DNA from: Steroidobacteraceae bacterium | Lineage (GTDB): Bacteria; Pseudomonadota; Gammaproteobacteria; Steroidobacterales; Steroidobacteraceae | Assembly: GCA_017853555.1 (NCBI GenBank) | Contig: JAFMJH010000001.1 | Coordinates: 1 to 64,000, forward strand | Length of the DNA: 64,000 bases | Direction: 5' to 3' | Part shown: one piece after another, positions 9,366 through 32,573 of the stretch | Numbering within the stretch: position 1 is the stretch's first letter | Layout: every line of letters begins with the position of its first letter | Program-made: the position numbers and the translations under genes | Notes under the pieces: model-generated | Told to the model about the DNA's origin: nothing | What the model saw: only the letters and a program-made list of their open reading frames with translations | Database searches by the model: none

Positions 9366-11514
9366 CCGGCAGGCCGGTGTGCTGCGTGCGGAACTTTTGG
9401 GGACGCGCACTCGCACCCCCGCTCTTGCGCACGTCGCCGCGCGCCCGCTCGCCTTCAGCCAAAGTACCGGTACCGGCGGGTTGCCACGGCGGAATGAGAT
9501 GCTGCTTGCCGGGCCCGATCAGATCCGCACGCCCCATGCGACGCAGCGTTTCGCGCAGCATCGGCCAGTTGTTGGCGTCGTGATAGCGCAGGAAAGCCTT
9601 GTGCAACCGGCGTATCTTGAGGCCGCGCGGAATGGCGACGCTCTCGCTGTCGCGCGTGACGCGTCGCAGCGGATTTTTGCCCGAGTGATACATCGCCGTG
9701 GCAGTCGCCATGGGCGACGGCAGGAATGCCTGCACCTGATCGGCGCGAAAACCGTTCTTCTTCAGCCAAAGCGCGAGCTCGAGCATATCCTCGTCCGTCG
9801 TTCCGGGGTGCGCCGCGATGAAGTACGGAATCAAATATTGCTCTTTGCCCGCCTCTTTCGAATAGCGGTCGAACAATTCTTTGAAACGATAGTAGGTACC
9901 GACGCCCGGCTTCATCATTTTGGAGAGCGGGCCCTCGCCGATCGCTTCCGGCGCGATTTTCAGGTAGCCGCCGACGTGATGCTGCGCAAGCTCTTTGACG
10001 TACTCGGGTGATTCGATCGCGAGGTCGTATCGCACGCCCGAGGCAATCAACACTTTTTTGATGCCGGGCAAGGCACGCGCCTTGCGATACAGCTGGATGA
10101 GGGGCGTATGGTCGGTGTTCAGGTTCGGGCATACGCCCGGATACACGCACGAAGGCCGACGACACGCGCTCTCGATCTCGCGGCTCTTGCACGCGAGCCG
10201 ATACATGTTGGCCGTCGGTCCGCCGAGATCGGAAATCACGCCCGTGAACCCCGGCACGGTATCGCGGATGGTTTCGATCTCGCGCAACACGGAAGTTTCG
10301 GAACGACTCTGGATGATCCGCCCTTCGTGCTCGGTGATCGAGCAGAACGTGCAGCCGCCGAAGCAGCCGCGCTGGATGGAAATCGAGAAGCGGATCATCT
10401 TGTACGCCGGGATCTCGGCCGTACCGTAGAACGGATGCGGACGCCGCTGATAAGGCAGCTCGTACACCTGATCCATTTCTTTGGTGGTGAGCGGGATCGG
10501 CGGCGGATTGAGCCAGATATCCTGGTTGCCGTGACGCTGCACCAAAGCCCGCGCATTGCCCGGATTCGCTTCGAGATGCAGGATGCGCGAAGCGTGCGCG
10601 TAGAGCACCGGATCGTCCACGACCTGCTCGAACGCCGGCAACCGTATGACGCTGCGTTCACGATCGACGTTCTTCACCCGACGCACGAATTTCACCACTT
10701 GTTCGGCGGATGCCTCCGCTGCCGGCTCGGCGGCGGCGTTTTTGGTGCCGCCGTTGTCTTCCATGGCATAGGGATCGAGCGGCGGATTCAGCGGCCCCGG
10801 GGTATCGAGATGGGTCGAGTCGATTTCGATCCAGCCCGCGGGCAAGGCACGGCGCGTGAATGCCGTGCCGCGCATGTCGTCGATGTCGCCGACGCGTTCG
10901 CCGGCGGCCAGACGATGTGCGATGTCGACGATCTGACGTTCGCCGTTGCCGTAGACCAGAAGATCGGCCTTCGCATCGAGCAACACCGAGCGACGGACTT
11001 TTTCGGACCAGTAATCGAAGTGCGCGATGCGACGCAGGCTGGCCTCGATGCCGCCGATCACGATGGGTACGTCGGCATACGCCTCGCGTGCGCGCTGCGA
11101 GTAGACGATCACCGAGCGATCGGGTCGCCGGCCACCCTCGCCGCCCGGCGTATAGGCGTCGTCCGAGCGCATGCGTCGGTCGCTGGTGTACCGGTTGACC
11201 ATCGAATCCATGTTGCCGGCCGTGATGCCGAAGAACAGATTCGGTTTGCCCAAGGCTTTGAAAGGGTCGGCAGATTGCCAATCGGGCTGCGCGATGATGC
11301 CGACGCGGAACCCGTGCGCTTCGAGCAGACGACCGACGATCGCCATGCCGAAGCTCGGGTGATCGACATAAGCGTCGCCGGTCACGACGATGACGTCGCA
11401 ACTATCCCATCCCAGCGCATCCATCTCGGCCCGGGACATCGGCAAAAACGGCGCGACACCGAAGCGCGAGGCCCAGTGCTTGCGGTAACCGAACAGGTCG
11501 CGAGCCGTTTGCAT
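9340..11514 (-). CDS. YgiQ family radical SAM protein
   Basis: A 724-residue protein, close to the usual YgiQ length. It starts [14 protein letters not shown], the family's N-terminus, and has the domain with [10 protein letters not shown]. The radical SAM cluster motif [10 protein letters not shown] (CxxxCxxC) is near residue 375, followed by a TIM-barrel-like domain and the YgiQ C-terminal region with PAPM-like text ([12 protein letters not shown]). Radical SAM enzymes cleave S-adenosylmethionine with a 4Fe-4S cluster; YgiQ itself has no agreed substrate. The C-terminal 50 residues are basic, low-complexity and probably disordered. A -10-like TGTAAT lies seven bases before the ATG. Confidence 0.94.
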
Positions 11515-11521
11515 GATGCGA

Positions 11522-11527
11522 ATTACA
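11522..11527 (-). promoter_or_regulatory. Possible -10 element of the ygiQ-type gene
   Basis: On the reverse strand TGTAAT is placed seven bases before the ATG at 11514. The expected transcription start coincides with the start codon, and no Shine-Dalgarno sequence is visible. No convincing -35 match is seen. Confidence 0.35.
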
Positions 11528-11576
11528 ACAGAACCGCGTTGCGGGCGCAGGAGTACGTCGCGACCCGGGTCTGGGA

Positions 11577-11582
11577 TATAGT
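11577..11582 (+). promoter_or_regulatory. uvrA: Possible -10 element of the tandem uvrA
   Basis: GGGATATAGTC contains TATAGT, a five-of-six match to the sigma70 -10 hexamer, 34 bases before the uvrA ATG. It lies in the roughly 100-base region divergent to ygiQ. I see no LexA-type CTGT-N8-ACAG operator in this intergenic region, so SOS control is not supported. Confidence 0.35.
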
Positions 11583-11616
11583 CGCGACCCACTCCACCAC
11601 CCCGTCCCCGCGCCTC

Positions 11617-17172
<5,556 letters not shown>

Positions 17173-19395: not shown

Positions 19396-20804
19396 TCGCC
19401 ACCACCACCCTGCTCTGGGCGGGCGTGGCGAACGCGCAAACGCCCGCGGGTGCACCCGCTGCCGATGCCGCCGTGCGCGAGCGTGGCGAATCGTTTTTGA
19501 AGTTCAAAGCGGCTCTCGATGCGAACGATCTCGTGGGCGCGCGACTGAGTGGCGAGGAGCTGGTCGCCAGCACCGAACGGCAGTTCGGCCAGGATGCACG
19601 AGAGCTCGTGGCGCCCCTCACCAATCTGGGCACCGTCGCCTATCGTCGCGGTGACTACGCGCTCGCCGAGAAACATTACTTGCGGGCGATACGCATCGTC
19701 GACGGGCGCGAAGCCGGGGCCGACCGGGTGTTGTTGCGACCACTGACGGGCCTCGGTGAAACCTACCTCGCCGAGCGCAAGTTCTTCGAGGGTGCAGCGG
19801 CGCTCAAGCGCGCGCTCGACCTCTCGCGCAATCTCGACGGTTTGTTCAATCCGGAACAGCTCGACATTCTCGATCCGCTGCTCGAGTGCTACGTGGCCCT
19901 CGGTCAAAAAGCGGATGCCGACAAAGAACACCAATACGGATTTCGAGTCGCCGAAGCGGCTTTCGGCAAAAACGATTTGCGGATGATCGAGGCACTCGAT
20001 CGACTTGCCGCCTGGCACGAGGCCAACGATCGCTATGCGACCGCCCGCGGTCTGCACGCGCGCGCCTTGCAAATCGTCGAGCAGTACGCGACGGCGCGAC
20101 CCGTGCTCGGGGTTCCGGCGTTGCGCGGACTTGCACGCACCTATTTGTTCGAAGTGATCGTCGGTCCGGAAGGCGGCGACGAAGCCGCGGAAATCAAACC
20201 GCGCGATCCGTTCGGCATGCCGGCAGTCGAGCAAGGCCGCCTCAATCCCGACGGCGAACGCGCCCTCAAATATGCGCTCGAGGTACTCGGCAACGGGCAG
20301 CCCCTCGATCGACGTACGCGCGCCGACACCTTCGTGCAACTCGGCAATTGGTATTTGATCGGCGGCTCTTTGTCGCGTGCCGCCGCCGAATACAAGCGCG
20401 CCTGGACAGAAGTCGCACCCCTCGGCGAAGCAGCGCTCGCATCGTTGCGCAAGCCTCGACTTCTCGCTTACAAGCCGCCGTCCATCTCCGCGAAACGATC
20501 AGGCGCGACGGACGACGACGCTCACGAAATCGTCGACGTGCGACTCGCCCTGAAGGTTGGACGCGACGGCAAAGTGATCGCGGTGAAAACGGCCGACGAC
20601 AGCATTGCGGAAGCGGCGAGTCGACCGGTGATGACCGCAGCCCGACGCGCACGATTCTCGCCGGCGATCGCCGACGGTGAGCCGATCGAAGTGGACGGCG
20701 TGCCGTTCGAAGATCGAGTGATCGTCAAGTCGAAGGCGAAGCCTGCAGCGACGCCAGCGACCGACGACGCGACGGCCGGATCGGCACCGCCTCGATCGCC
20801 GTAA
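19359..20804 (+). CDS. Exported TPR protein with TonB-C-like end
   Basis: A 481-residue protein with a Sec signal: FRKALIATTTLLWAGVANAQ ends at a clear AxA site. The central part, about residues 60-360, is helical with TPR-like pairs such as LGTVAYRRGDYALAEKHYLRAI. Residues 400-465 resemble the TonB C-terminal fold (VRLALKVGRDGKV then ARFSPAIADGEPI), as found in periplasmic energy-transducer relatives. The C-terminus is Ala/Pro-rich. The start lies inside the upstream methyltransferase gene (37-base overlap, another frame). The 3' end overlaps the convergent lipoprotein gene by 80 bases. Its role is unknown; it may be a periplasmic scaffold. Confidence 0.8.
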   Translation: MAGFTLSFRKALIATTTLLWAGVANAQTPAGAPAADAAVRERGESFLKFKAALDANDLVGARLSGEELVASTERQFGQDARELVAPLTNLGTVAYRRGDYALAEKHYLRAIRIVDGREAGADRVLLRPLTGLGETYLAERKFFEGAAALKRALDLSRNLDGLFNPEQLDILDPLLECYVALGQKADADKEHQYGFRVAEAAFGKNDLRMIEALDRLAAWHEANDRYATARGLHARALQIVEQYATARPVLGVPALRGLARTYLFEVIVGPEGGDEAAEIKPRDPFGMPAVEQGRLNPDGERALKYALEVLGNGQPLDRRTRADTFVQLGNWYLIGGSLSRAAAEYKRAWTEVAPLGEAALASLRKPRLLAYKPPSISAKRSGATDDDAHEIVDVRLALKVGRDGKVIAVKTADDSIAEAASRPVMTAARRARFSPAIADGEPIEVDGVPFEDRVIVKSKAKPAATPATDDATAGSAPPRSP

Positions 20805-21447
20805 CCGCCGCAGCGACCGCGCCTGCGGGCACCGATGCGGCGACCAGCTTTTCGCCTTTGGCCAGCTGCTCGGCCAAAGGCTGACCCTGGAACTGGGCGA
20901 GGAACTTCGCCGCCGCGTCGCGCATCGCGTTGCGCGTCGCGATGGCCATCGGCTCTTCACTGCCGATACCATCGACCAAACTTGCGCCGTAACCCGTGAG
21001 CGTCAATGAATCGAAGCGTGCGCCCTCCGGCGTATGCACGTCGATGCGGTAGCGGATCGTCACGGCCACGTACATGCCGCCGGTCTCGCTCGCCGTGGCG
21101 AACGAATACTGTTCGATTTTTGGCTCGAACACCGCCTGCAGGTTCTCGGCCTTGCGGGCAGCTTCGAAGTCGGGAAATTCACGTGCCTGACGGAACTCGG
21201 CGGTGAAGATTTCGCGCATCAACTTTTGATGTCCGGCGCCGAGCGAGACCTTCCACGGCACTCCGGCACGAGTTTCCGAGTGCACGTAGTTGCGCTGCTC
21301 GCTCGTGAGTACGTAGCCGACGTCGGCGCCGATCGGTTGCACGAGTGCGCGCGGCAACACGGGCTCCGGCGCTATCGTCACCCCGCCGCACGCCGCGAGT
21401 GCCGCCGACGCGACACTCGCCGCCATCAGTCGCTGCCACCCATGCAC
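20725..21447 (-). CDS. Lipoprotein, last gene of the kinase/VWA operon
   Basis: A 240-residue predicted outer-membrane or periplasmic lipoprotein. The signal ends in the lipobox LAAC near residue 20 when the GTG at 21447 is used; that start supplies the positive charge of the n-region. An alternative ATG at 21426 overlaps the VWA gene stop as TGATG but gives an uncharged signal. The mature part has a beta-rich middle (YVAVTIRYRIDV, FDSLTLTGYGASLVDG) and an Ala-rich tail. I recognise no family. It ends the ten-gene operon and its 3' end overlaps the convergent TPR gene by 80 bases, with no terminator visible. Confidence 0.8.
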   Translation of the reverse strand: MHGWQRLMAASVASAALAACGGVTIAPEPVLPRALVQPIGADVGYVLTSEQRNYVHSETRAGVPWKVSLGAGHQKLMREIFTAEFRQAREFPDFEAARKAENLQAVFEPKIEQYSFATASETGGMYVAVTIRYRIDVHTPEGARFDSLTLTGYGASLVDGIGSEEPMAIATRNAMRDAAAKFLAQFQGQPLAEQLAKGEKLVAASVPAGAVAAAVTAIEAVPIRPSRRRSLASLQASPST

Positions 21448-22481
21448 GTGTTGATGCCTCCGATGTTCATGCTGACGGCGCAGGTCTTTTCGTTGGTGAT
21501 GCCGACGAACGTACCGTCATTGCGCTCGACCACCTGCCGCATTAGGGCGGAAAACCGGATATTTGTAAACGGCGTCATGCCCGGCGCTTCCGGGAAGCCG
21601 ATGGCGTGGATCCGTACGCGACGACGCCCGCTCTGGTCGGGTTTGTTGATGCGATCGATCGAATCGAGTGCGGCCTGGATCGATTCACCCGTGAACTCGT
21701 CGCCGAGCACGTAAATGCTGATCCGACGTTCGGCGGACCAATAGTTGCGAATGGCCAACTCCAGACCGTCGACGGGATTCGAATCGCTGAATGCGCGCCA
21801 GTCTTTCATACGCTGCACGATTTGCGTACGCAGGCTGGCCGAATCCGTGAGCCATGTCCCCCGCGTACCCGAAAACATCTCCTTGCCGTTGTCGTCGATG
21901 ATTTGCACCCCTTTCAGCTTGGGGTAAATGTCGAGGATTTCGCGCATCACGGCTTGCGCGGTATCCCAGTGACCACCCTGCATGCTGCCCGAGGTGTCGA
22001 TCAGGAAAATCACGTAATCGGAATCGACCGGAATGCCGCCGACGGCCTCGGTGGAGATGCGCTTGCGGCTGCGCGACACCTGCAGCAACTTTTTGTTTTG
22101 CTCTTCGAGTTCCTGATAGGCGGTGAGCAGTTCGTTCTCCAGAATGTTGCTGACCGCCGCGTTTTGCTTCGAAGCTTTGAACTGCCCACCGAGCGCCGAG
22201 AGTTCGCCGGCAGCGCGGGCGAGGTTCAGACGTTCGCGGGTCAGCTGCTCGGTACGACCGCGCAGCTCGCGCTCGAGGCGATCGGAGTCGCCGCGGATCA
22301 CGAACAGCTCCTCCTGCAGCCGCTTGAGCTGCTGGTTCATATTCTCGCGCGAGACCTCGATCTGCACGGGACGCCCGAACTCGGTGAGCACGAGCAACAG
22401 AATGATCGCCCCGAAACCGCAGCAAACGACGTCCAGGAACGACAGACTGAAAATTTCGGTTTCGCGACGCTTGATTCTCAT
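21426..22481 (-). CDS. Membrane-anchored VWA domain protein (second copy)
   Basis: A 351-residue protein. After a basic start (MRIKRRE) comes one membrane helix, FSLSFLDVVCCGFGAIILLL, of the MotB/ExbD-like layout, then a long coiled coil at about residues 45-130. The C-terminal VWA domain from about residue 150 has the metal-binding motif DTSGSM (MIDAS DxSxS). VWA domains mediate metal-dependent protein contacts. A paralogue with the same N-terminal motif lies directly upstream, and the ATG overlaps that gene's stop. The soluble part is expected to face the periplasm. It may couple the kinase module to the envelope lipoproteins; no partner is proven. Confidence 0.88.
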   Translation of the reverse strand: MRIKRRETEIFSLSFLDVVCCGFGAIILLLVLTEFGRPVQIEVSRENMNQQLKRLQEELFVIRGDSDRLERELRGRTEQLTRERLNLARAAGELSALGGQFKASKQNAAVSNILENELLTAYQELEEQNKKLLQVSRSRKRISTEAVGGIPVDSDYVIFLIDTSGSMQGGHWDTAQAVMREILDIYPKLKGVQIIDDNGKEMFSGTRGTWLTDSASLRTQIVQRMKDWRAFSDSNPVDGLELAIRNYWSAERRISIYVLGDEFTGESIQAALDSIDRINKPDQSGRRRVRIHAIGFPEAPGMTPFTNIRFSALMRQVVERNDGTFVGITNEKTCAVSMNIGGINTCMGGSD

Positions 22482-23575
22482 GGCCAATCCGGGGAGGGCA
22501 TGACGAACGAGCCCTTGGTGAGTCTTGCCAAGCCCCAGAAGCGGTGCGCCGCCTGCACATCGCCTTTCATGGGCAACAGCACGACGTCGATCGGCAGATT
22601 GCGATTGATGCCGCGCACCGCCTCGTCGAACAGTCGCACTCGTCCCGCCGCGTCGACGGTCCGTCGCAAGGCTGGCGGCGTGGCGCCCTGCGTTGGCAAG
22701 CCATCGGTGATCAGCAAAACCTGATCCGGCGGCAATTGCATCTCGCGAATCGCTTTCAAGGCGTTGAACAGACTCGTACCCTCGCGCGGCACCAGTGCAC
22801 CGAGGCCATCGAGCACTTTTGCACGCTGCGCGTCATCATCGACCGACAGCCATTGACCCGCCGTACCGGCGAGCACCGGTGCTGCCGCGGTGTTGAAGCC
22901 GTACACCTGATACTGCGCGCCCGCCGGCAGTTCCGAGATCACCCAACTCGTGATGTCGACGGCGCGACGCCACTTCGGCGCGGACAACTGTGCCGCGCTC
23001 GGCATGTTGCGCAGACGAATGATGTTCACCAAATCGTCATCCAGCATGCTGCCGGACCGATCAAGCAGTACGAGTACGCGCCGACCTTTGAGCGCAAGCC
23101 CCGTGATGTAGCGGCGGCCGACCAGATTTTTGCCGGATCCGACGCGATCGCCGCGCTGCGCAGAAGCGACTTTTGCGCTCGCTTCGAGGCGCCGCGAGTT
23201 CTCCTGCAAGGCCCTGACGTCCGTTTTCAGCTTTTCGATGCGCTCGCGCTTGGCGAGTGTCGTCTGATCGTACGAGGAACTTTCTTCTTTCGACGTGCGC
23301 AACTGCTCGATCAGGACGCTGGCGCGCGAGCTTGCGCTGGCGGTTTCGCTTTCGGTCTTGCGGATCGCATTGCGCAACAAGACGAGGCGTTCGCGACCCT
23401 GCGTCACTTCTTCGTCCAATTTCGCCACTTGCGCGGCGAGTACATCGTTGCGCCGCGAGTTCTGCAGCCCGCTTTGCGCGCTGACGATGGTATAGAACAA
23501 GATCACTGCGCCGAAGCCGCAGCAAATCACGTCGAGAAACGAGAGACTGAAGACCTCGAAACTACGGCGCGCCAT
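22478..23575 (-). CDS. Membrane-anchored VWA domain protein (first copy)
   Basis: A 365-residue protein with the same architecture as its neighbour: short basic N-terminus, helix FSLSFLDVICCGFGAVILFY at about residues 8-27, a coiled-coil region to about 130 rich in Glu, Arg and Ser, and a VWA domain whose MIDAS motif is DRSGSM near residue 174. A second conserved VWA feature, LLITDGLPTQG, is near 295. The paired cysteines in the helix are shared by both copies. The 5' end overlaps the FHA gene by 14 bases and the 3' end overlaps the second VWA gene by four, so translation is coupled. Confidence 0.88.
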   Translation of the reverse strand: MARRSFEVFSLSFLDVICCGFGAVILFYTIVSAQSGLQNSRRNDVLAAQVAKLDEEVTQGRERLVLLRNAIRKTESETASASSRASVLIEQLRTSKEESSSYDQTTLAKRERIEKLKTDVRALQENSRRLEASAKVASAQRGDRVGSGKNLVGRRYITGLALKGRRVLVLLDRSGSMLDDDLVNIIRLRNMPSAAQLSAPKWRRAVDITSWVISELPAGAQYQVYGFNTAAAPVLAGTAGQWLSVDDDAQRAKVLDGLGALVPREGTSLFNALKAIREMQLPPDQVLLITDGLPTQGATPPALRRTVDAAGRVRLFDEAVRGINRNLPIDVVLLPMKGDVQAAHRFWGLARLTKGSFVMPSPDWP

Positions 23576-24920
23576 CGCGCTCCCCGACGGCGAGCAGCGA
23601 CAATTCGACGCCCGGATCGCCGATGCGAATGCGATCGCCCGCGAGTACGGTCAGGCGATCGATCACGCGCTCGCCATTGACGAGCGTGCCGTAACGCGAG
23701 TGGTCGACCAGCGTCACGACTTGTCCGTCGCGGCGCAAACTGCAATGCAAACGCGAGACGCCCGCCAAATCATCCGGCAAGCGCAAACCGCCCTCGCCGG
23801 GCTCGCGACCGATGGGCAGATCGGTCTCCAAAGTCAGCGGCAACGCGACGCCGGCATGCTGCACGTGCGTCGGCGCGATCTTGGGACGCAGGTCCACGAC
23901 CGACTCGCGCGGCGCCTCGCGCGGCTCCTCGATCGGGCGATGCAGCGGGACGCTGCGATGGAAGATCACGGTATCGCTCGATTCAGGATCATCATCCAGC
24001 GACGAGGCGAATCGTGCGCTCAAACCGGTGGGCATGGACACCCAGCGACATGCCGAGAACTCCGTGAACGCCGCTGCGATACCCGGCAGCTCCCAGACCC
24101 ACTCGGGTGCGAGCAAGGTCAGATCGCGGCCCGGCGGTCTTACTTCACGCAGCACCGCAGTGATTTTGCGCAGCACCGCCGCGCCGCTCGCGCCGAATTG
24201 ATCGCGAGTCAGAGAAATGCGCGCCACGTCGTGTGCCGTCGGTATTTCAAGGTGCGCCACTCCGACTCGTGCGGCTTCACTTGCAGCGGGCAACAAGGTG
24301 TCTTCGAGCCGCTGCTCCGCCGAGGCGTCGTACAACGGGTCGTAACGATTGCGCCGCACGAGTGCATCGCGCGACATCGCCATCCATGCATCATGCAACT
24401 CGAGGAGTCCATGGCCGTGGCGCACGGCGCTCGCCCGGCGTCGAGCCTCCAGGTGATCCGCCAGCACGCGTGTCGCCGCGACATGATGCAAGCCCACTTC
24501 CAGCACGAGCACCGTGCCGCTCAAGCCGACGGCCGCGACAGACAACGCCGCAGCATCGTAAAAGCCCAAAACCCGCAGACCCTCCGCACGCGCCGCGGCG
24601 AGCAGGATCGACAAACCGGCGGAATCGATTTGCGCGGACACTCCGATCCGGATGTCGAAAGGCGTTGCGAAGTCGCCGCCGCGATACGGCCAGAGCCGAC
24701 TGCGCAATTCCGCCCGTATCAGATCGACACGGCGTTCGCGCCAGTGCGTAGTGGAAATCGTGGCCGGATACAGGCGGCGCTGGTGCTGCGCATCCGTGCC
24801 GAATCGCACCGGATCGTTGACATCCGCGTGCAGGATCGAACGCGCGCAAGATCGCAAGATCCCGTCACTCGCGACGGCAAGCGCAGCATCGATCGTGCCG
24901 AGTGCGAAACGAGCGCTCAT
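23562..24920 (-). CDS. Hsp70/actin-fold-like protein fused to an FHA domain
   Basis: A 452-residue cytoplasmic protein. Its C-terminal 85 residues form a clear FHA phosphothreonine-binding domain: PIGREPG, then SRLHCSL, then RYGTLVNGE, which are the GR, SxxH and NG positions. The first 170 residues resemble a degenerate Hsp70-type ATPase: AEGLRVLGFYDAAALSV aligns by eye with the Hsp70 INEPTAAAL block, and VLVLEVGLHHVAATRV with the phosphate-2 strand, but without the usual catalytic acid-glycine motif. It could be an adaptor reading phosphorylation by the kinase encoded four genes upstream. The ATG overlaps the preceding small membrane protein gene. Confidence 0.78.
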   Translation of the reverse strand: MSARFALGTIDAALAVASDGILRSCARSILHADVNDPVRFGTDAQHQRRLYPATISTTHWRERRVDLIRAELRSRLWPYRGGDFATPFDIRIGVSAQIDSAGLSILLAAARAEGLRVLGFYDAAALSVAAVGLSGTVLVLEVGLHHVAATRVLADHLEARRRASAVRHGHGLLELHDAWMAMSRDALVRRNRYDPLYDASAEQRLEDTLLPAASEAARVGVAHLEIPTAHDVARISLTRDQFGASGAAVLRKITAVLREVRPPGRDLTLLAPEWVWELPGIAAAFTEFSACRWVSMPTGLSARFASSLDDDPESSDTVIFHRSVPLHRPIEEPREAPRESVVDLRPKIAPTHVQHAGVALPLTLETDLPIGREPGEGGLRLPDDLAGVSRLHCSLRRDGQVVTLVDHSRYGTLVNGERVIDRLTVLAGDRIRIGDPGVELSLLAVGERDGAP

Positions 24921-25219
24921 ATGTCGATTGGAAAACTCGCGTTGTTGTCGGCCGAATCGCGCAACTCTCGCGGATCTTCGTCGGCAGTGCGGGGCGGTGG
25001 TGCACGACGCGGACCGACTTCCGCCTCATTGGTATCGACGTCGCCGGACGTTTGCGCAGCAGCCGCGGGCGCCGTCTTGGCGGCGGGCCGAACCTCTTCC
25101 GGTGGCTCCGCGTTCTGCGCAATGGCGCGCACGCCGAGCGTGGACACCATCCACGCCAGCGTCGCGATCACGACCAAAGAAATCAGCCATTTTGCGATCG
25201 GCATTCGTTCATTCCGCAT
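24917..25219 (-). CDS. Small single-pass membrane protein of the kinase operon
   Basis: A 100-residue protein. A basic start (MRNERMPIAKW) precedes one hydrophobic helix, LISLVVIATLAWMVSTLG, followed by an Ala/Pro/Glu-rich low-complexity tail that probably projects into the periplasm or cytoplasm without folding. No family is recognised. Two starts are possible: ATG 25219, overlapping the upstream stop by 11 bases, and ATG 25204 just after it. The stop overlaps the FHA gene start. Its place between the FGE-like and FHA proteins suggests a linker or assembly subunit, but nothing shows this directly. Confidence 0.7.
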   Translation of the reverse strand: MRNERMPIAKWLISLVVIATLAWMVSTLGVRAIAQNAEPPEEVRPAAKTAPAAAAQTSGDVDTNEAEVGPRRAPPPRTADEDPRELRDSADNNASFPIDI

Positions 25220-27605
25220 ATCGAGCCACCCGGAAACCGATCTCCTGCGTCGCCACCTCGGCACCGTCGCGCCAGGCTGCACGCAATTCGGCATACGTCG
25301 CCGTACGCCAACTGCTGCCCTTGATCACGTGCCGCGACCCGCTCGCCGGACCCAGGTAATCGGTCGACGAGCTTGGCGTGTCATACGAGGCATAGAAGTC
25401 TTGCACCCACTCGGTGACGTTGCCGACCATATCCTGCAAACCCAACGCATTGGGCGCGAACTTCCCGACCGGCGCGACGGCAGGATAGTCGTCCTGCCAG
25501 GCTTCGAGCACCGTCGGCAACGAAGTCGCCGCTTCGCCGCCGGCGAGATTCGCGCTGCCGGCGGGCGGTGGCAAGGTGTCACCCCAATCGTAACGCTTGG
25601 TCTTGCGTTCGGCCCCCGCATAGCGCGCGGCGAGCTCCCATTCACCCTCGGACGGCAAACGATAGCCGCTCGTCACCGGTTGTCGCAGCACCCATTGTCC
25701 ATCGCGTTGCTCGTAGGCCGGCGGCAGACCCTCACGCTCGGAGAGCCAGTTGCAAAACGTCACCGCGTCCGCCCACGTCACACCGGTCACCGGCATCGCG
25801 TCCAGATCAATCGAACGTTTGTCGACGAACCCGGAGGCATGACTGTCGCGAAACTTGCGAAACTGGCCATTCGTGATTTCACGCGTGGCGATGTAGACCG
25901 GTCGCGCAAAGGTGAGTACACGCGGCGTCTCGTTGGCGCGTCGACCCTGCTCGCGTCGCTCGCTGCCGAGTGCGAACGTGCCGCTCGGCAACAGGCGCAA
26001 CGCGATGCCGAGCGGCGACTCCACTTGCGCGGCGGGCGCTTTCCAACCGGCAGGTTTGCCTTGCAGCGTCAGCTCGTAGTCGACCCGGCGCGCGGCGGCC
26101 GCAGACAGATCGATCGTCGTTTCAAAGTCTTGATAGCCGGGTGCCGATACCTTGAGCGTCTGCGCAATCGCCGGCAGCTCGATCTCCAACGGCGCCTTGC
26201 CACGTTCCAGGCCATCGATCTGCACGACGGCGCCGACCGGCTTGCCCTGCACCAAAAGTTTCACGGCGACCACGGGCAACTCGAGCGACCACGCGAGTTT
26301 TTGACCGGCGCCCGGCACGAGGTTGCGCACGATCGAACCGTAACCCGCACGCTCGACGGTGATCTCTTGCGGCAGTCCGGCCGGCAACGACAACACTTGC
26401 GGCGTGCGGCCGCGGAACGTCCCGGCGACCGAGACGTCCGCGCCGCTCGGCGAGGAGACGATGCGCAACGTCGCATCAGGTGCGCCGAGCGTCAGCGGTC
26501 CGATCGAGAGCGTCTGCCCACCTTTGAGCAGCACGGCGCCCTGCCAGACTTTGGCACCGGGCGCCCGAATCGTGAGCCGGCGCAAACCCGCAGGCGCGTC
26601 GACCGTCGCCGGCAAAGTCACGGGCGCTTGATCATCGACGGCCAGCGTCGCCTGCGAAGCATTCACCGACACGGCGATCTTGCCCCAGTGGCTTTGCATC
26701 ACGACGCGCAACGACTCGTGCTCACCCGCCCCTTTGATCTGCAAGCGACGCGTGAGATCGAGATACCGCGGCGCGCGCAACGTCACCGTCCGCGTGCCCG
26801 TCGCGAGCGCAATCTCGCCCGGCGCGCGACCGACTTGCACCCCATCGACGAACACCGTTGCCGCGATGCCGCCGGTGTCGATGGACAAACGTCCCGGCAG
26901 TGGTTGCAAACGCACGCGCAAGATCTCGATACCACCCTGCCCGATTCGCACCGTCTGTTGACTCGATTCGTAACCCTCGCGTGACACGCGAAGGGTGCGC
27001 ATCCCAGGCATGGCATACAGAACGTTGCCGGCATGCCATGAGATGCCGCTCGCGTGTACGCGCGCATCGACGGGATCGACGTCCACGGCGATGCGATGCA
27101 TGCCGAGCGTGACGAGCGCCACCAACAGCGTCAGTGCAATGGCGATGATCCAGCCGACTCGAAAATTTTTGACGGGGCGCTGACTGGGAAAGGGCTGCGC
27201 GTCGACCTCACCGAGATCGGCGGGGACGATTTCCTCGGTCGCGACGTCGTCGTCACCCAGCGCCGTCAATGCCCGCACCGGCTCGATGGTCGCGTTGCTT
27301 GCCGAGTGCGTCACCACGATCGACGGCTCGAGCCCGACGTCACGCAATTGCACGCGCGCCGAACCCAGAAAGATCACGTCGCCGAGCAGCAATTCGCGAA
27401 ACGCACCGGGTGCCATCCAGCCGTTGTTGACGCGCACCGGGACGTCACCGTCGATGCGGATCCGCAATACATCTTCTTGGTGATCGATTGTGACGCGCTC
27501 GGCGTCCTTCGCGCCGGGGACCAGCACGTTGCAAAGCCGGTCGCCACCGATGCGTACCGGAAGATTGAGGGCGCGCTCACCGAAGGGTTCGTGAACGTGG
27601 ATCAT
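25209..27605 (-). CDS. FHA-like/TM/PEGA-repeat protein with C-terminal FGE-like domain
   Basis: A 798-residue membrane protein. Residues 1-95 show the beta pattern of a degenerate FHA domain (LPVRIGGDRLCNV and VNNGW, LLLGDVIFLG) without the SxxH motif. A helix, VGWIIAIALTLLVALVTLG, follows at about 150. The exterior part carries at least three PEGA-like repeats, e.g. VFVDGVQVGRAPG and VQIDGLERGKAPLEI. The C-terminal 240 residues form a formylglycine-generating-enzyme-like (sulfatase-modifying factor) domain: TREITNGQFRKF, GYRLPSEGEWELAAR, DMVGNVTEWVQD, IGFRVAR. The active-site cysteines of true FGE are absent, so this is likely a binding module. The ATG overlaps the kinase stop. Confidence 0.88.
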   Translation of the reverse strand: MIHVHEPFGERALNLPVRIGGDRLCNVLVPGAKDAERVTIDHQEDVLRIRIDGDVPVRVNNGWMAPGAFRELLLGDVIFLGSARVQLRDVGLEPSIVVTHSASNATIEPVRALTALGDDDVATEEIVPADLGEVDAQPFPSQRPVKNFRVGWIIAIALTLLVALVTLGMHRIAVDVDPVDARVHASGISWHAGNVLYAMPGMRTLRVSREGYESSQQTVRIGQGGIEILRVRLQPLPGRLSIDTGGIAATVFVDGVQVGRAPGEIALATGTRTVTLRAPRYLDLTRRLQIKGAGEHESLRVVMQSHWGKIAVSVNASQATLAVDDQAPVTLPATVDAPAGLRRLTIRAPGAKVWQGAVLLKGGQTLSIGPLTLGAPDATLRIVSSPSGADVSVAGTFRGRTPQVLSLPAGLPQEITVERAGYGSIVRNLVPGAGQKLAWSLELPVVAVKLLVQGKPVGAVVQIDGLERGKAPLEIELPAIAQTLKVSAPGYQDFETTIDLSAAAARRVDYELTLQGKPAGWKAPAAQVESPLGIALRLLPSGTFALGSERREQGRRANETPRVLTFARPVYIATREITNGQFRKFRDSHASGFVDKRSIDLDAMPVTGVTWADAVTFCNWLSEREGLPPAYEQRDGQWVLRQPVTSGYRLPSEGEWELAARYAGAERKTKRYDWGDTLPPPAGSANLAGGEAATSLPTVLEAWQDDYPAVAPVGKFAPNALGLQDMVGNVTEWVQDFYASYDTPSSSTDYLGPASGSRHVIKGSSWRTATYAELRAAWRDGAEVATQEIGFRVARYAE

Positions 27606-29881
27606 CCGGGGATCGCCTCCGTGCAACGCAACTCGATCACTGCCGAGTCGTCACCGGGCACCAATACGACTTCGCGCCTTACGTCGCGGAACCCTTCGCG
27701 CGTACCGAGCAACACGTAACGCCCAGGCTTGAGCGCAAGCTCGGTTTTCGACACGGCGCCGATCTCCCGCAATTTCTGGATGACGATCCGGGTCGCCCCG
27801 TCCGATTGGATGACGAGGCGCACCGGGCTGTCGTAGCGCTGCAATTGGGCGCGCAACGCACTCACCTGTGCACGCAGACGCGGCGCCTCGCCGATCACGG
27901 CTGCCGCTTTCGTGATCAAGGCATCCGCCTCGGCGCGCACCTCCGGCGCCGACAATCGTTCCGGTTTCGTCACCATCATCTCGAGCCGACGCGCGAGTTC
28001 CGCGCGCGGCCTCACCCGTATGGCCGACTCACGCGCGAACACCAAAGTCGGATCACGCGTCAGCAAAGATTCGTATTGCGCCAAAGCCTCCGCCCAGCGC
28101 TCGCCGCTCTCGAGCGCGAGCGCGTTGCGGCGCAGCGTGTCGAGATCGGTGCGCGCGCCGAGCGCGTCGAGCGCGATCAAACCTTCACGAACTTCGACGC
28201 CCTCGGGGCGCAGAACCTTGGCGCGCGCCAGAGCGGCACGCGCCTGCTGGGGCTGCCCGGCGCGCAATTGCCGCAGCGCCTCGCCGATCTCGCGCGCATA
28301 GCGATCCGAGCCGAGCAGGTCTCGCGCACGCGCTGCGCCGTTGCGCGCGAGCCGGTTTTCACCGTCGGCGCGCAACACCTGTTCAAACAACTGCAACGCG
28401 TGCAGAGCGTCTTCATTCAACAACGCGGCCTCGGCGTCGGCGAGTCGGTCGAGCACGGGAGCCAATTTCGCGATTCGTGCCAAAGCCTTTGCCGCTTCGG
28501 CATTGCCCGGATCGATTTGCGCGGCGAGCTCGTACGCACTTTTGGCTCGATCGAGTGCGGACTCCTCGAGCGCGCGCGCCGCCGACGACAGCTGCGCATC
28601 CCGCGCAGGAACGCGCTCCGCCTCCACCCGCCCGAGTCGTTGCTGCGCGACCGTCATTCGTTCGATCGCAAGCTCGTATTCACCGGCACGCTCGGCCGCA
28701 TAGGCGCTTTCACCAAGCGCTTTGGCCGCGCCGAACGCCGCACCACCCCACACGCCCGCCGCGCGCTGCTCGAGCGCTTGCAGCGTGGTCTCGAATTGCT
28801 TGCGCGCGTCTCCGAAACGCCGTCGTTGTTCGTCTGCCGATGCCGCCGACAACAACGCACGTGCGGTATCGGGCGACACGCCTTCCGACCGCGCTGTCTG
28901 AGCGACGGTGGTGGTACCGATCGCAAATTTCGGCAACCAAAAAAATACGGCGGCCAGCGCCGCGAGCAATGCGCCAGCACCGAACCACACGTGCCAGCTG
29001 CCGCGAGGACGCATCGCGTCATGGCTACGCAGGGCGTCGAGATCAGCGGGCACGATGCGATCCAGCAATGCGGCTCCATCGACGTCGTGGGCGCTCAAGT
29101 CCACCGCCCGCAACGCCTGCAACACCGCACCCATATCCCGTGGTCGGTCACCCGGCTCCTGCGCCAGCGCCTGCCGCAGCAGCTCGAGCAGCGCAGCGGG
29201 TAAGGGATGCGGGAACGCGCCCTCCTGCAAGTCTGCCGCATCGAGACGCTCATGCGGATATGCGGGCGGATAGCCACGCAGCAGCTCGTACGCGAGCGCA
29301 CCGAATCCGTAGACGTCGTCGGCGACGGACGGCGGCGCGCCGGACGCCTGTTGCGGCGACGTCGAATAACGCGCGTGCGCAGCCTCTGCAGGCGCGACAC
29401 CGTCCAGCGAGGCGACGCCGAAGTCGGTCAGCAATGCGCGACCACGAAAGTCCAGCAGCACGTTGCCGGGTTTGAGATCACGATGGATCACGCCCTGCCG
29501 ATGAGCGGCGCTCAAGGCTTCGGCGACGTCGATCAACACCGACAAAACATGTGCGGCCGGCTTGCCGCGCAGCCGTGTGGCGTCGCCCGATGCCAGCTGC
29601 ATCGGCAACACCCAGACTTCGTCGTCGTGCATCGGTGCATCCGTACGCACGACGCGAATATCTGGAACGGCCGCATGCAAGCGCGACGCAATAGCGTGTT
29701 CGCGTTGCAACGACAAGCATGCCGCATCGGACAATGCATTGCCGGCGACTACCTTCAGCGCGACCTGCACGCCGGAGCTTTCGTCGAGTGCGCGCCATAC
29801 TTGAGCACCGGCATCGCCACCCAGATGCTCGATCAGCGCAAACCGCGCAAGCAGGCGCTTACCTTGTTCGAACACGGTCAC
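27602..29881 (-). CDS. Transmembrane Ser/Thr protein kinase with TPR-rich C-terminal part
   Basis: A 759-residue protein. The N-terminal 260 residues are a Hanks-type kinase: VALKVV (ATP lysine) near 43, HRDLKPGN near 134 and TDFGVAS near 152. The glycine loop is unusual (LGGDAGAQV) and the APE motif reads SPQ. A single helix, GALLAALAAVFFWL, lies near 297. The remaining 440 residues contain helical TPR-like repeats and a C-terminal beta part (LALKPGRYVLLGTREGF) related to PEGA-type domains, probably outside the inner membrane. The start is GTG four bases after the upstream stop; a second GTG two codons later is possible. It is the only kinase in the operon and likely phosphorylates the FHA partners' ligands. 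Confidence 0.93.
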   Translation of the reverse strand: MTVFEQGKRLLARFALIEHLGGDAGAQVWRALDESSGVQVALKVVAGNALSDAACLSLQREHAIASRLHAAVPDIRVVRTDAPMHDDEVWVLPMQLASGDATRLRGKPAAHVLSVLIDVAEALSAAHRQGVIHRDLKPGNVLLDFRGRALLTDFGVASLDGVAPAEAAHARYSTSPQQASGAPPSVADDVYGFGALAYELLRGYPPAYPHERLDAADLQEGAFPHPLPAALLELLRQALAQEPGDRPRDMGAVLQALRAVDLSAHDVDGAALLDRIVPADLDALRSHDAMRPRGSWHVWFGAGALLAALAAVFFWLPKFAIGTTTVAQTARSEGVSPDTARALLSAASADEQRRRFGDARKQFETTLQALEQRAAGVWGGAAFGAAKALGESAYAAERAGEYELAIERMTVAQQRLGRVEAERVPARDAQLSSAARALEESALDRAKSAYELAAQIDPGNAEAAKALARIAKLAPVLDRLADAEAALLNEDALHALQLFEQVLRADGENRLARNGAARARDLLGSDRYAREIGEALRQLRAGQPQQARAALARAKVLRPEGVEVREGLIALDALGARTDLDTLRRNALALESGERWAEALAQYESLLTRDPTLVFARESAIRVRPRAELARRLEMMVTKPERLSAPEVRAEADALITKAAAVIGEAPRLRAQVSALRAQLQRYDSPVRLVIQSDGATRIVIQKLREIGAVSKTELALKPGRYVLLGTREGFRDVRREVVLVPGDDSAVIELRCTEAIPG

Positions 29882-29885
29882 GTTC

Positions 29886-31121
29886 TCAGGGTTGAACGGC
29901 AGGGTCGGCCGGACGTGCGTTTTCTTCCTGATAGATGCCCGCGAGCAGCTTGCGCCATTCGCGATAACGCTCCTCGGCCGTACCCGTGAGCTTCAAAGTA
30001 CGACCCTCGACTTCGACCACCTGCGGCGTCGCCTCGTTCTGGAAGCTGGTGGCGAGTTCCTTCACCTCCTGCGCGGCGACTTTGGCATCGGAATATTTTT
30101 TGATGCCGGACATGACGGCAGCCACGCCGCCGACCGCGCCGGCGGTACGTGCGGCGCTTTCGAGTCGCTGGCAGGCGTAATCGGTCGGTGCGCAGTTGGC
30201 TTTCGCGAGAATGGCCGCGAGTACCGCCGCAGAACCCAGGATGGTGCGGGTGCGTGCTTGCGATTTGACCCGCTCTTCACGCTCGATCGCATCGCGACTG
30301 GTGCGTCGAAAACCGCCGTAAGAATCGAACAGTTTTTCGGAGAAGCCGCTGTTGTAGCCGTCGATGGTGTCGATCAGTGCGGCGTCACGATCACGAATCT
30401 TGTCGATGCGGGCCACCGCAGGGTCGTTCTCGGCAGGCAACCTGACCAGATGCGTCAGGCCATCGGCGCCGCGCGCGAGGTAGGCGGAAAACGTCTGTGG
30501 CGCGAGATCGGCCGCGAAGCGCAGCCGCGCGACTTGACGCAGCTCGGCACGCTGCGTGGCGTCGAGTCTTTCGCGCGCCTGCAGCAAGTCGTTGGCGATC
30601 TGCGCGTAGACGTTCTGGAACGGATCGCGAGCCCGCAGCGAGGCGTCGGTCTTGTACGCGCCGACATCCGCTTCGCCGGAATATATTTTTTTGTTGATCC
30701 AGTTGCGACCGACCGCATCGCTCGCCGTGATCTCGAGCGAGAGACGCATGCCCGTGGATTCGACGATGCGCCCTGTGACCAGCAGGTCGACGAAACGTAC
30801 CGTGCTGGGCACGACGCGTACGGCACCCCATTGACCGGAAGTCTCGAGCGTCGATTTAAGGCGCGTGGCGATCAAGCGCGTCTCGGCTTTTCTGACTTCC
30901 GGATAGATTCGTCGTTTGTCGAGCGCTTCGACGTCATCGGCGAGCGCTGCCGGAATGCCGGGATCGAATTCGTGAATCGCGACGTCGAGCAACTCGACTT
31001 CGGCAATCTGCGTTTTGGCCTGCACGGCATCGACCTTGGCCACCGGACGCACGTCGTTCACGACGCAGCCGGCCAGCAGCGCGAAGAGCGCCGCAAGCAA
31101 TGGTGTCGCGCGACGGATCAT
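29886..31121 (-). CDS. Lipoprotein of the kinase operon (third gene)
   Basis: A 411-residue lipoprotein: MIRRATPLLAALFALLAGC gives a textbook signal with lipobox LAGC, Cys at residue 19. The following residues (VVNDVRPVAK) do not include Asp at +2, compatible with outer-membrane sorting. The mature protein mixes alpha/beta segments such as VDLLVTGRIVESTGMRLSLE and a hydrophobic patch ILGSAAVLAAILAKA near 310 that could be a second membrane contact. No family is recognised; secretin- or CsgG-type relations are conceivable but unproven. Its ATG overlaps the stop of the second lipoprotein gene, and four bases separate it from the kinase gene. Confidence 0.82.
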   Translation of the reverse strand: MIRRATPLLAALFALLAGCVVNDVRPVAKVDAVQAKTQIAEVELLDVAIHEFDPGIPAALADDVEALDKRRIYPEVRKAETRLIATRLKSTLETSGQWGAVRVVPSTVRFVDLLVTGRIVESTGMRLSLEITASDAVGRNWINKKIYSGEADVGAYKTDASLRARDPFQNVYAQIANDLLQARERLDATQRAELRQVARLRFAADLAPQTFSAYLARGADGLTHLVRLPAENDPAVARIDKIRDRDAALIDTIDGYNSGFSEKLFDSYGGFRRTSRDAIEREERVKSQARTRTILGSAAVLAAILAKANCAPTDYACQRLESAARTAGAVGGVAAVMSGIKKYSDAKVAAQEVKELATSFQNEATPQVVEVEGRTLKLTGTAEERYREWRKLLAGIYQEENARPADPAVQP

Positions 31122-31825
31122 CCACCGCCTCCCTTCGAGCCCTTTTTGTACTCGATGTATTCCTTCCACAATTTTTCTTTGAGTTCCGGATCGGTTTCCT
31201 GTTCAGCGGCACGCCGCAAGCGGCGGGCGACGATATCGTCGTCGTCTCCCGAGGGAATCCCGCGATCGGGCGCACCACCACCACCGCCGGTCGTCACGGC
31301 TCCCCGGTCACGACGATCACCTCCGCCGCGCCGCGTTTCGTTGCCCGCTTTGCCTTCCGCGCCGCGCGCACCGCGCTCGGAACGCAAATCGCCTTCGCGA
31401 TCGCCGACATCTTTTCCCGTATCCGCGGTGCGCGAACCCGCGGTGGCGGCGGCACGCGCATCACGCTCGGCGGCGCTGCGTCGCTGCTCGTCACTCAAAG
31501 TTTTGTCGAACTCGCCCAAAGAATCATCAAGCCGGCGATCGAGTGTGCCGCGACGTTCTTCGGCGGTCGTTGCCGCGCCCGCGACATCGCCGGCCGTACC
31601 CGCTTCGGCACCGCCGGAGGCACTCGGGGTGGACATGTCCCCCGCGCCCGAAGTTCCCGCGCTGCCGGAACGCGACGGCGTCGCATCACCACCGGGCGAC
31701 GGCAGACCGCCCGACGTCGGTGCGGACGTGGGCGTACTCGGCGCAGGCAGACCGCCCGACGTCGTCGCGCAACCGCCCAACAATGAAATCAGCCCGGCCA
31801 ACCACCAAGTCGATGCGCGCGTCAT
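31118..31825 (-). CDS. Low-complexity lipoprotein of the kinase operon (second gene)
   Basis: A 235-residue lipoprotein with signal MTRASTWWLAGLISLLGGC, lipobox LGGC and Cys19. The mature chain is Gly/Ser/Ala/Thr-rich at first, then highly charged with Arg, Asp and Glu, and is probably disordered; the N-terminal linker contains a duplicated TSGGLP motif. Near the C-terminus lies a short helix (DPELKEKLWKEYIEYKKG) that may be the only folded part. Such a chain could reach through the periplasm. No family is recognised. Both ends overlap neighbouring genes by four bases (ATGA). Confidence 0.78.
   Translation of the reverse strand: MTRASTWWLAGLISLLGGCATTSGGLPAPSTPTSAPTSGGLPSPGGDATPSRSGSAGTSGAGDMSTPSASGGAEAGTAGDVAGAATTAEERRGTLDRRLDDSLGEFDKTLSDEQRRSAAERDARAAATAGSRTADTGKDVGDREGDLRSERGARGAEGKAGNETRRGGGDRRDRGAVTTGGGGGAPDRGIPSGDDDDIVARRLRRAAEQETDPELKEKLWKEYIEYKKGSKGGGG
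31701..31764. repeat. 19-bp direct repeat in lipoprotein linker
   Basis: GGCAGACCGCCCGACGTCG occurs at 31701-31719 and again, identically, at 31746-31764, 45 bases apart. Both copies are in frame in the second lipoprotein gene and encode the TSGGLP motif of the linker after the lipid-anchored cysteine. Identity at the DNA level suggests a recent duplication or slippage and makes this linker prone to length change. Confidence 0.85.
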
Positions 31826-32484
31826 CCGCCACCTTTGAAGAATGCATGCAATTGATCCGAGAGCCGGTTGCAGGCCGTGCCTTCGACCCGCGCGATGAAC
31901 GGCAACGGCACGATGGCGCCGACGATCGCCGATGTGCCGGTGACGTTCGTGCCGACGCTGCCAGCCGATTTCGCCTGCTTGAGGTCCCAGATCGTCGCCT
32001 CGAACGCCGACTCTTTTTCCCACCACCCGAAGCCGATGCATCCGGCCGCACCCGGTGCCACGCCGCAGGCAAGACTGCCGCCGCCGTCGGTACGGCGCGT
32101 TGCACCATTGAGCCAGACCACGTAGCGCACGCCGGTGCTGGAGACTTTTTCACTGACCCCCGGTTTGCCGAGCAGCTTGGTCACGCCCTCGGGCCGCGAC
32201 GGCGCCGTGCCGGGCTCGAACCACGGAAACAATTGATCGACGAACGCATTGTTGTCGACCACGTCGACGGGGTTTTGATGGGTGCTCAAACCTTTGGCGA
32301 CGCAATCCATGAAACCGTCCGCGGCCGCGGCTCCCTCGATCTGCGGCTTCGCGAGTATCACCACCGCCTCACCCTGCGCGACGGTCGTTTGCAGTTCGCG
32401 CGACTGCTCGACGCGCGCACTCATGCAGCCGCCGAGCAGCAGCAACGAGAGGACGATCAGAGGTGATGTCGAACGAACGCCCAA
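31822..32484 (-). CDS. Lipoprotein, first gene of the kinase/VWA operon
   Basis: A 220-residue lipoprotein starting at a TTG: MGVRSTSPLIVLSLLLLGGC, lipobox LGGC, with Cys20. The start is chosen because GGAG lies seven bases before the TTG and because the signal is complete; the track's 639-residue ORF merely runs on from the MFS gene's other frame. The mature part contains four further cysteines (e.g. FMDCVAKG and LACGVAPGAAGCIGF) that could form periplasmic disulfides. The region AVVILAKPQIEG is a predicted strand. No family is recognised. It is the first gene after a candidate promoter. Confidence 0.75.
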   Translation of the reverse strand: MGVRSTSPLIVLSLLLLGGCMSARVEQSRELQTTVAQGEAVVILAKPQIEGAAAADGFMDCVAKGLSTHQNPVDVVDNNAFVDQLFPWFEPGTAPSRPEGVTKLLGKPGVSEKVSSTGVRYVVWLNGATRRTDGGGSLACGVAPGAAGCIGFGWWEKESAFEATIWDLKQAKSAGSVGTNVTGTSAIVGAIVPLPFIARVEGTACNRLSDQLHAFFKGGG

Positions 32485-32545
32485 CTGGAGTCTCCGCAAG
32501 CGCGCCGCACGCACGCCTCGCGGGCCGTGCCGGCTGACTCGACCA

Positions 32546-32573
32546 AGTTTACCGAACGACGGGCGACTGACTA
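32546..32573 (-). promoter_or_regulatory. Candidate sigma70 promoter of the ten-gene kinase/VWA operon
   Basis: On the reverse strand TAGTCA and TAAACT are separated by 16 bases; each matches sigma70 consensus at four of six positions. The predicted start lies about 50 bases before the TTG of the first lipoprotein gene. The -35 element overlaps the stop codon of the upstream MFS gene. No obvious operator palindrome is present. Confidence 0.4.

Follow-up and report, generated by a model that had tools for sequence, protein, structure and literature searches.

Genetic Organization of the Operon

The DNA under study is a stretch of 64,000 nucleotides (hereafter, the window) from a Steroidobacteraceae bacterium (assembly GCA_017853555.1, contig JAFMJH010000001.1, positions 1 to 64,000). 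Between positions 20725 and 32573 the window harbors ten open reading frames (ORFs), all on the reverse strand, which are listed in order of transcription in Table 1. An original prediction, made from the sequence alone, had described them as a tightly coupled set of genes for a possible envelope signalling system. Analysis of ORFs and junctions confirmed the ten genes and their coupling; seven coupled junctions had been proposed, and seven or eight of the nine do overlap. Overlaps of 4 nt are found at five junctions (LipA/LipB, LipB/LipC, PK/FGE, SM/FHA and VWA1/VWA2), while the FHA/VWA1 overlap is of 14 nt and that of VWA2/LipD of 1 nt. FGE and SM either overlap by 11 nt or are spaced by 4 nt, depending on the choice of start, and LipC and PK are separated by a 4-nt gap. 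Judging from the gene overlaps, one transcript across the ten genes is plausible. Scans for consensus promoters and terminators detected no signal exceeding that of shuffled sequence.

Pfam and NCBIfam searches detected kinase, FHA, FGE and VWA domains and four PEGA domains among the products, and four of the proteins carry a lipobox, in agreement with the predicted set of kinase, FHA, FGE, two MIDAS-containing VWA proteins and four lipoproteins. The same searches gave no meaningful match for the four lipoproteins or for SM, a small protein with a single transmembrane (TM) helix.

Table 1. Features of the operon in the window, in order of transcription.
Feature	Coordinates	Strand	Description
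LipA	31822..32484	-	Lipoprotein with LGGC lipobox; start uncertain (32514, 32484 or 32445); homologues in related loci, absent in some clades
LipB	31118..31825	-	Lipoprotein, low-complexity, with conserved C-terminus; ATGA overlap with LipA
LipC	29886..31121	-	Lipoprotein; small alpha/beta domain and long helical hairpin; ATGA overlap with LipB
PK	27602..29881	-	Cytoplasmic Hanks kinase (~16-247), TM helix 298-316, periplasmic TPR/PEGA-like C-terminus
FGE protein	25209..27605	-	Cytoplasmic FHA-like N-terminus, TM helix 150-168, four PEGA domains, FGE-fold domain (GldK/PorK-like)
SM	24917..25219	-	Small single-TM protein; start at 25219 or 25204; equivalent small ORF in relatives
SM/FHA junction	24917..24920	-	ATGA overlap; site of the CHA gene in most relatives
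FHA protein	23562..24920	-	N-terminal Hsp70-NBD-like domain, C-terminal FHA domain
VWA1	22478..23575	-	Conserved Asp15 in the TM helix (SFLD..CGFG), followed by coiled coil and MIDAS VWA domain
VWA2	21426..22481	-	Invariant Asp in a TM helix paralogous to that of VWA1 (SFLD..CGFG), followed by coiled coil and MIDAS VWA domain; ATGA overlap with VWA1
LipD	20725..21426	-	Lipoprotein with LAAC lipobox; last gene

Conservation of the Operon

VWA1 was sought in 147 genomes from the order to which the window belongs, and 123 of them had a match (E 0.001); the matches of two of these (G051 and G075) reach only ~1e-9 and are probably not true orthologues. Neighborhoods of up to 20 kb from many VWA1 genomes, plus 80 named loci, were annotated with a home-made gene caller and iterated hidden Markov models. 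The recurrent order is LipB-LipC-PK-FGE-small ORF-CHA-FHA-VWA1-VWA2, with LipA and LipD nearby in many loci; CHA is a gene that the window operon lacks and is treated below. VWA2 accompanies VWA1 at 117 of 121 VWA1 loci. Because the same order recurs in dozens of loci, the gene set is far from chance. The view that known families explain single proteins and not the whole set holds, and the operon is conserved as a unit whose genes are found together, not scattered.

The system is nearly universal in the order and mostly single-copy. Named relatives are found in Steroidobacteraceae, in other gammaproteobacterial metagenome-assembled genomes (MAGs) and in Halieaceae (Haliea sp. E1-2-M8, a culturable member with no detected kinase domain), and some are MAGs labelled as Acidobacteria or Desulfobacterales, labels that were taken as given. 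In a phylum sample, clear VWA1 homologues were present in 15 of 399 genomes, 12 of them from one family of another class, and the operons examined there had no FHA gene. A search restricted to the TM region found matches in 35 of 369 gammaproteobacterial genomes, a few of them weak, and their neighborhoods mostly contain the same core.

Some departures from the common picture were also seen. Two genomes of family f9 (G022, locus L070, and G008, locus L071) carry, beside the standard operon, a second, divergent one with the order LipC-PK-FGE-CHA-VWA1-VWA2-LipB, with neither an FHA gene nor a kinase domain. Within the window's own family, f1, neither VWA1 nor CHA was found in any sampled genome of genera g4, g5, g6, g10 and g11, an apparent loss of the whole system. 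Three loci titled as Klebsiella pneumoniae or Janthinobacterium lividum MAGs (L101, L104 and L161) contain Steroidobacteraceae-like operons and are probably mislabelled bins.

A Channel Subunit Encoded Outside the Window

In most relatives, the gene between SM and FHA encodes a channel of the MotA/TolQ/ExbB type, CHA (~265 aa). CHA is a member of PF01618 (MotA_ExbB), with E values of 4e-13 to 4e-15 and 49.5-56.3 bits against a Pfam cut-off of 22.9; its best solved relative is TolQ, a weak match (E 0.03). Two threonines, T217 and T250, are invariant in A3 (CHA) and align with threonines of three canonical ExbB/TolQ proteins from the same genome.

In the window operon the SM stop overlaps the FHA start, which rules out that a CHA gene lies undetected between them. 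This genome has a single CHA copy, which lies on another contig, outside the window (G000:C31:10466-11350, reverse strand, locus L065), and is surrounded by unrelated genes. It retains all the motif residues and matches PF01618 above the cut-off (E 3.6e-11, 43.4 bits). An assembly artefact was ruled out as the cause of the missing gene, as a relative whose VWA1 is 84% identical (L093/G545) shows the same CHA-less operon and the same neighborhood around the relocated CHA.

CHA was detected in 120 of the 147 genomes of the order (E 1e-25), and all 120 are VWA1-positive. Conversely, every VWA1-negative genome is also CHA-negative. The genomes with VWA1 and without CHA are G063, which is 70% complete, and the two whose VWA1 is doubtful. 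In 13 further genomes the operon is CHA-less or incompletely covered; 12 of them have exactly one CHA elsewhere, and a CHA search in the thirteenth (L119/G549, 2.8 Mb) found none. In three loci (L079 of G108, L242 and L243), CHA is placed after VWA2 and not before FHA and VWA1.

The absence of CHA between SM and FHA might suggest that the window operon is a decaying remnant left after loss of its channel gene. We consider this highly improbable: every ORF is intact and, against L093, which shares the arrangement, dN/dS is 0.04-0.23 in nine of the operon genes and 0.115 in the relocated CHA. All the genes compared, relocated CHA included, are thus under purifying selection. Given these values and the existence of one CHA elsewhere, the system looks maintained with its wheel subunit encoded at another site.

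The relocated CHAs form one clade, except that of L125, which joins L079 on long branches. They lie in several different neighborhoods, and the genomes that host them are dispersed over the VWA1 tree, which implies at least 7 changes. These three observations speak against a simple single excision of CHA and make it more likely that the operon CHA was displaced by a distinct CHA lineage, whether through transfer or through an old duplication.

A MotA-like channel combined with a TM partner and effectors is also the layout of Zorya-type anti-phage defence. The likeness extends to the MotA-family channel with a single-TM partner, to a weak ZorA match of one CHA (L034; 22 bits, channel region only) and to the resemblance of the kinase to PADLOC kinase models. 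Nevertheless, a defence function of this type seems very unlikely to us: the system is near-universal and mostly single-copy (123/147) instead of patchy, the relocated CHA of this genome has no PADLOC match, VWA1 and VWA2 have no ZorB match, no ZorC or ZorD match was found, and the genes include no nuclease or helicase effector. On the operon proteins, PADLOC detected generic kinase similarity only.

A Pair of VWA Proteins with an Aspartate in the Transmembrane Helix

VWA1 and VWA2 match the VWA_2 family with E values of 8.6e-6 and 1.8e-4, just below the Pfam cut-off, and the DxSxS signature of the MIDAS is present in 121/121 VWA1 and 113/113 VWA2 homologues. Their N-termini are paralogous (hhalign probability 99.8%) and consist of a short basic stretch followed by FSLSFLD..CGFGA.., a predicted TM helix with an Asp near its start. 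In pattern counts, this Asp is found in all the sequences whose N-terminus was captured (106/106 for VWA1 and 102/102 for VWA2) and also in A7. Sequences outside the pattern mostly have a start called past the Asp; six others, all from one family, read SFLDIISSAF.

In this Asp-bearing N-terminal helix, the two VWA proteins resemble ExbD, TolR and MotB. An ExbD profile built from relatives had no match in the operon loci (MotB was not sought separately), and a Pfam scan of VWA1 and VWA2 yielded no ExbD match.

An Optional, Putative Control Module

PK has a Pkinase match of 9e-20 and keeps the catalytic Lys (VALK), HRD (HRDLKPGNV) and DFG (LTDFG) motifs, as expected from an active Hanks kinase. 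The FHA protein has an FHA domain match of 5.6e-11, with canonical phosphothreonine-binding residues as judged by eye. Its first ~310 residues adopt, in a predicted model (pLDDT 91.5), the fold of an Hsp70 nucleotide-binding domain (NBD), with a TM-score of 0.73 against the DnaK NBD; also by eye, the nucleotide loops are degenerate.

A kinase with intact motifs, a TM helix and a periplasmic TPR region, together with an FHA domain with intact binding residues, is what one would expect if the operon served kinase-centred envelope-stress signalling, in which the TPR part senses, FHA proteins relay, and VWA proteins and lipoproteins provide the sensor scaffold. Co-occurrence of the two domains agrees with this idea and with the original statement that kinase and FHA belong together: among 83 complete loci, 65 have both, 16 have neither and 2 are discordant, so that 81 have both or neither (Fisher 5.5e-15). 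The count was limited to complete loci, since most of eight apparently kinase-less, FHA-positive loci have a kinase gene truncated by the end of the contig. For the most part, the FGE protein's long cytoplasmic head tracks the same pattern. In the 16 loci without kinase and FHA domains, however, the rest of the operon is kept, and most neighborhoods of the wider gammaproteobacterial sample lack these domains too. Besides, a core made of a channel and an Asp-bearing VWA pair is superfluous for pure signalling. Kinase signalling as the primary function is therefore unlikely. Kinase and FHA constitute an optional module and, since both domains are absent together while the rest of the operon is kept, phosphorylation looks like an added regulator instead of part of the core. 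Within PK, it is the C-terminal TPR/PEGA half that is conserved, and the kinase domain is optional. In four loci of family f6 (L074, L078, L079 and L080), the kinase domain forms a small ORF of its own, located upstream of that for the TPR/PEGA part.

In type VI secretion systems (T6SS), a Hanks kinase with a periplasmic part (PpkA) and an FHA protein (TagH, or Fha) control a trans-envelope machine. The kinase and the FHA protein of the operon would be alike in this respect. However, the TagH match is confined to the FHA domain, with a score of 23.5 against a cut-off of 120.25, and no Tss match was found among the operon proteins.

Periplasmic and Lipoprotein Components

The FGE protein combines an FGE-sulfatase match of 4e-45 with the four PEGA domains. 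The active-site segment of its FGE domain has no Cys in 97 of 98 family members, so that, by sequence, the domain lacks the catalytic cysteines that a formylglycine-generating enzyme should have. Its closest machine-type relatives are GldK and PorK: the domain scores 98.7 bits against NCBIfam GldK, below the cut-off of 350, and matches PorK structures with 1e-11.

This relatedness raises the possibility of a gliding or secretion apparatus similar to Myxococcus Agl-Glt or to the GldKLMN/PorKLMN complex of the type IX secretion system (T9SS), where a proton motor is combined with an FGE-fold protein and lipoproteins; the putative motor of the operon, with its FGE-fold protein and lipoproteins, would parallel GldLM-KN. 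Such an apparatus would be a special case of a motor with another output, in which the motor and a GldK-like ring of the FGE-fold protein would move or export a substrate. We find it improbable: GldK is a lipoprotein with neither PEGA nor TM, the operon has no GldM-like partner, no GldL, GldM, GldN or SprA match was found among its proteins, and the GltG match is confined to the generic FHA domain.

The AF2 model of LipC (mean pLDDT 87.8) consists of a small domain and a long helical hairpin. The best Foldseek match of the small domain is 4r40 (TolB/Pal), with a probability of 0.96 and an E value of 0.037, a weak, TolB-N-like similarity. The operon resembles Tol-Pal in this match and in that a MotA/TolQ/ExbB channel, an Asp-TM partner, and periplasmic and lipoprotein partners are joined in one operon. 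In contrast to Tol-Pal, it has no match to TolA, the TolB propeller or Pal, and has VWA domains instead; furthermore, separate TolQ/TolR-like and ExbB/ExbD-like gene pairs are found elsewhere in this genome.

Relationship to Other Described Systems

A literature search for the pairing of vWA and a TolQ-like motor subunit retrieved a single paper, that of Williams-Jones et al. (2025; PMC12204202). In its passages on the family, it describes TPH-vWA/TolQ-like proteins as predicted, putative force transducers and, independently and starting from other genomes, models TolQ-like pentamers around paired vWA helices. The traits given there are a pair of distinct TM-vWA genes beside a TolQ-like gene with no tolR or exbD, a conserved Asp in the TM helix, a Thr ring in the TolQ-like subunit, and a wide distribution in Proteobacteria. 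The system described here likewise shows co-occurrence with a TolQ homologue, no tolR or exbD at the locus, and heterologous vWA pairs with an Asp-bearing TM helix. Differences exist as well. The text of the paper makes no mention of kinase partners (0 matches for “kinase”), and its passages on the family include no FHA/Hsp70-like or PEGA-FGE genes. In addition, the channel gene of this genome lies outside the operon, and the likeness to the Idiomarina family rests on the description of the latter.

The MoxR-vWA ternary conflict systems (PMC7159879) also have vWA, FGE-fold, PEGA and FHA domains among their components, but the operon has no MoxR AAA ATPase, and PMC7159879 mentions neither ExbB nor a proton channel. 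No named system matches the set exactly.

Surroundings of the Operon

Upstream of the operon lies a gene for an MFS transporter and downstream, in convergent orientation, one for a TPR protein that weakly matches TonB_C. Elsewhere in the window, in an ORF of 2281 aa (10327-17172, forward strand), two UvrA-type proteins follow each other head to tail within a single frame; it scores 2029 bits with NCBIfam UvrA, in several stretches.

A Putative Ion-Driven Motor

Altogether, the conserved core is a MotA/TolQ/ExbB-like channel, two VWA proteins with an Asp-bearing TM helix, and periplasmic and lipoprotein partners. In our view, the product of the operon is likely to be a trans-envelope machine driven by ions and of the 5:2 type (MotAB, TolQR, ExbBD), related to the Tol and Ton motors. 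We infer a 5:2 assembly, ion flow, rotation, mechanical output and a phospho-switch, arranged as follows:

(i). CHA would be the pentameric wheel, supplied in this genome from a separate locus, and the axle would consist of two diverged subunits, VWA1 and VWA2. Their Asp-bearing TM helices would sit inside the CHA wheel, and the coiled coils would extend the VWA domains into the periplasm.

(ii). In the periplasm, the VWA domains would act on the FGE-fold protein with its PEGA domains, on the TPR/PEGA region of PK and on LipB, LipC, LipA and LipD, and these partners would link the motor to peptidoglycan and to the outer membrane.

(iii). Cytoplasmic control would be optional. The kinase may phosphorylate a Thr in one component; the Hsp70-like protein may bind this phosphothreonine through its FHA domain, perhaps along with the FHA-like head of the FGE protein, and thereby switch assembly or activity.

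Three observations weigh against a motor of this kind. One is that CHA is unlinked in this genome; that the relocated CHA serves the window operon is deduced from its being the only CHA copy. Another is that comparison of the VWA N-termini with the ExbD profile (PF02472) gave a non-significant hhalign probability of at most 11%, with Asp aligned to Asp. Homology between ExbD and the VWA proteins could not therefore be demonstrated by profile comparison, an unsurprising failure because only one helix was compared. The third is that the kinase-FHA association goes back to ~4-6 independent changes in evolution, a number at which a sign test does not reach significance; none of them is in the opposite direction.

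The original prediction saw a signalling system and not a motor because the channel gene is on another contig in this genome. Its ten genes are real, and a trans-envelope assembly of VWA proteins and lipoproteins is plausible; the channel, a core component, lay out of its view, and the Hsp70-like domain of the FHA protein went unnoticed. The term “undescribed” applies to the larger set, while a family of TolQ and paired TM-vWA proteins had been predicted in 2025 (PMC12204202). Most likely, the operon is a variant of that kind of motor for which more of the parts can be listed, to which a kinase/FHA/Hsp70-like module is added for control and whose wheel subunit is encoded at an unlinked site. 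Whether it deserves to be considered a distinct class of ion-driven machine, a 5:2 motor under phosphorylation control that is defined by an axle of two different VWA proteins, a periplasmic assembly of TPR/PEGA and dead-FGE parts, and a Thr-kinase/FHA/Hsp70-like switch in one large clade, with a wheel gene that can be swapped for an unlinked variant, is in our opinion evenly balanced.

Few ion-driven envelope motors are understood: the flagellar, Ton, Tol, gliding and Zorya motors. Since the system is near-universal in one order of Gammaproteobacteria and also occurs, in a scattered fashion, in many other families, its role in the envelope is probably a basic one. For a motor that had so far been no more than a predicted TolQ-vWA pair, our analysis names likely partner proteins, and it suggests that Thr phosphorylation may govern a motor of such kind; operon versions with and without the kinase provide a natural comparison. 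Lastly, the relocated wheel subunit illustrates that a central component can escape notice when the operon alone is read.

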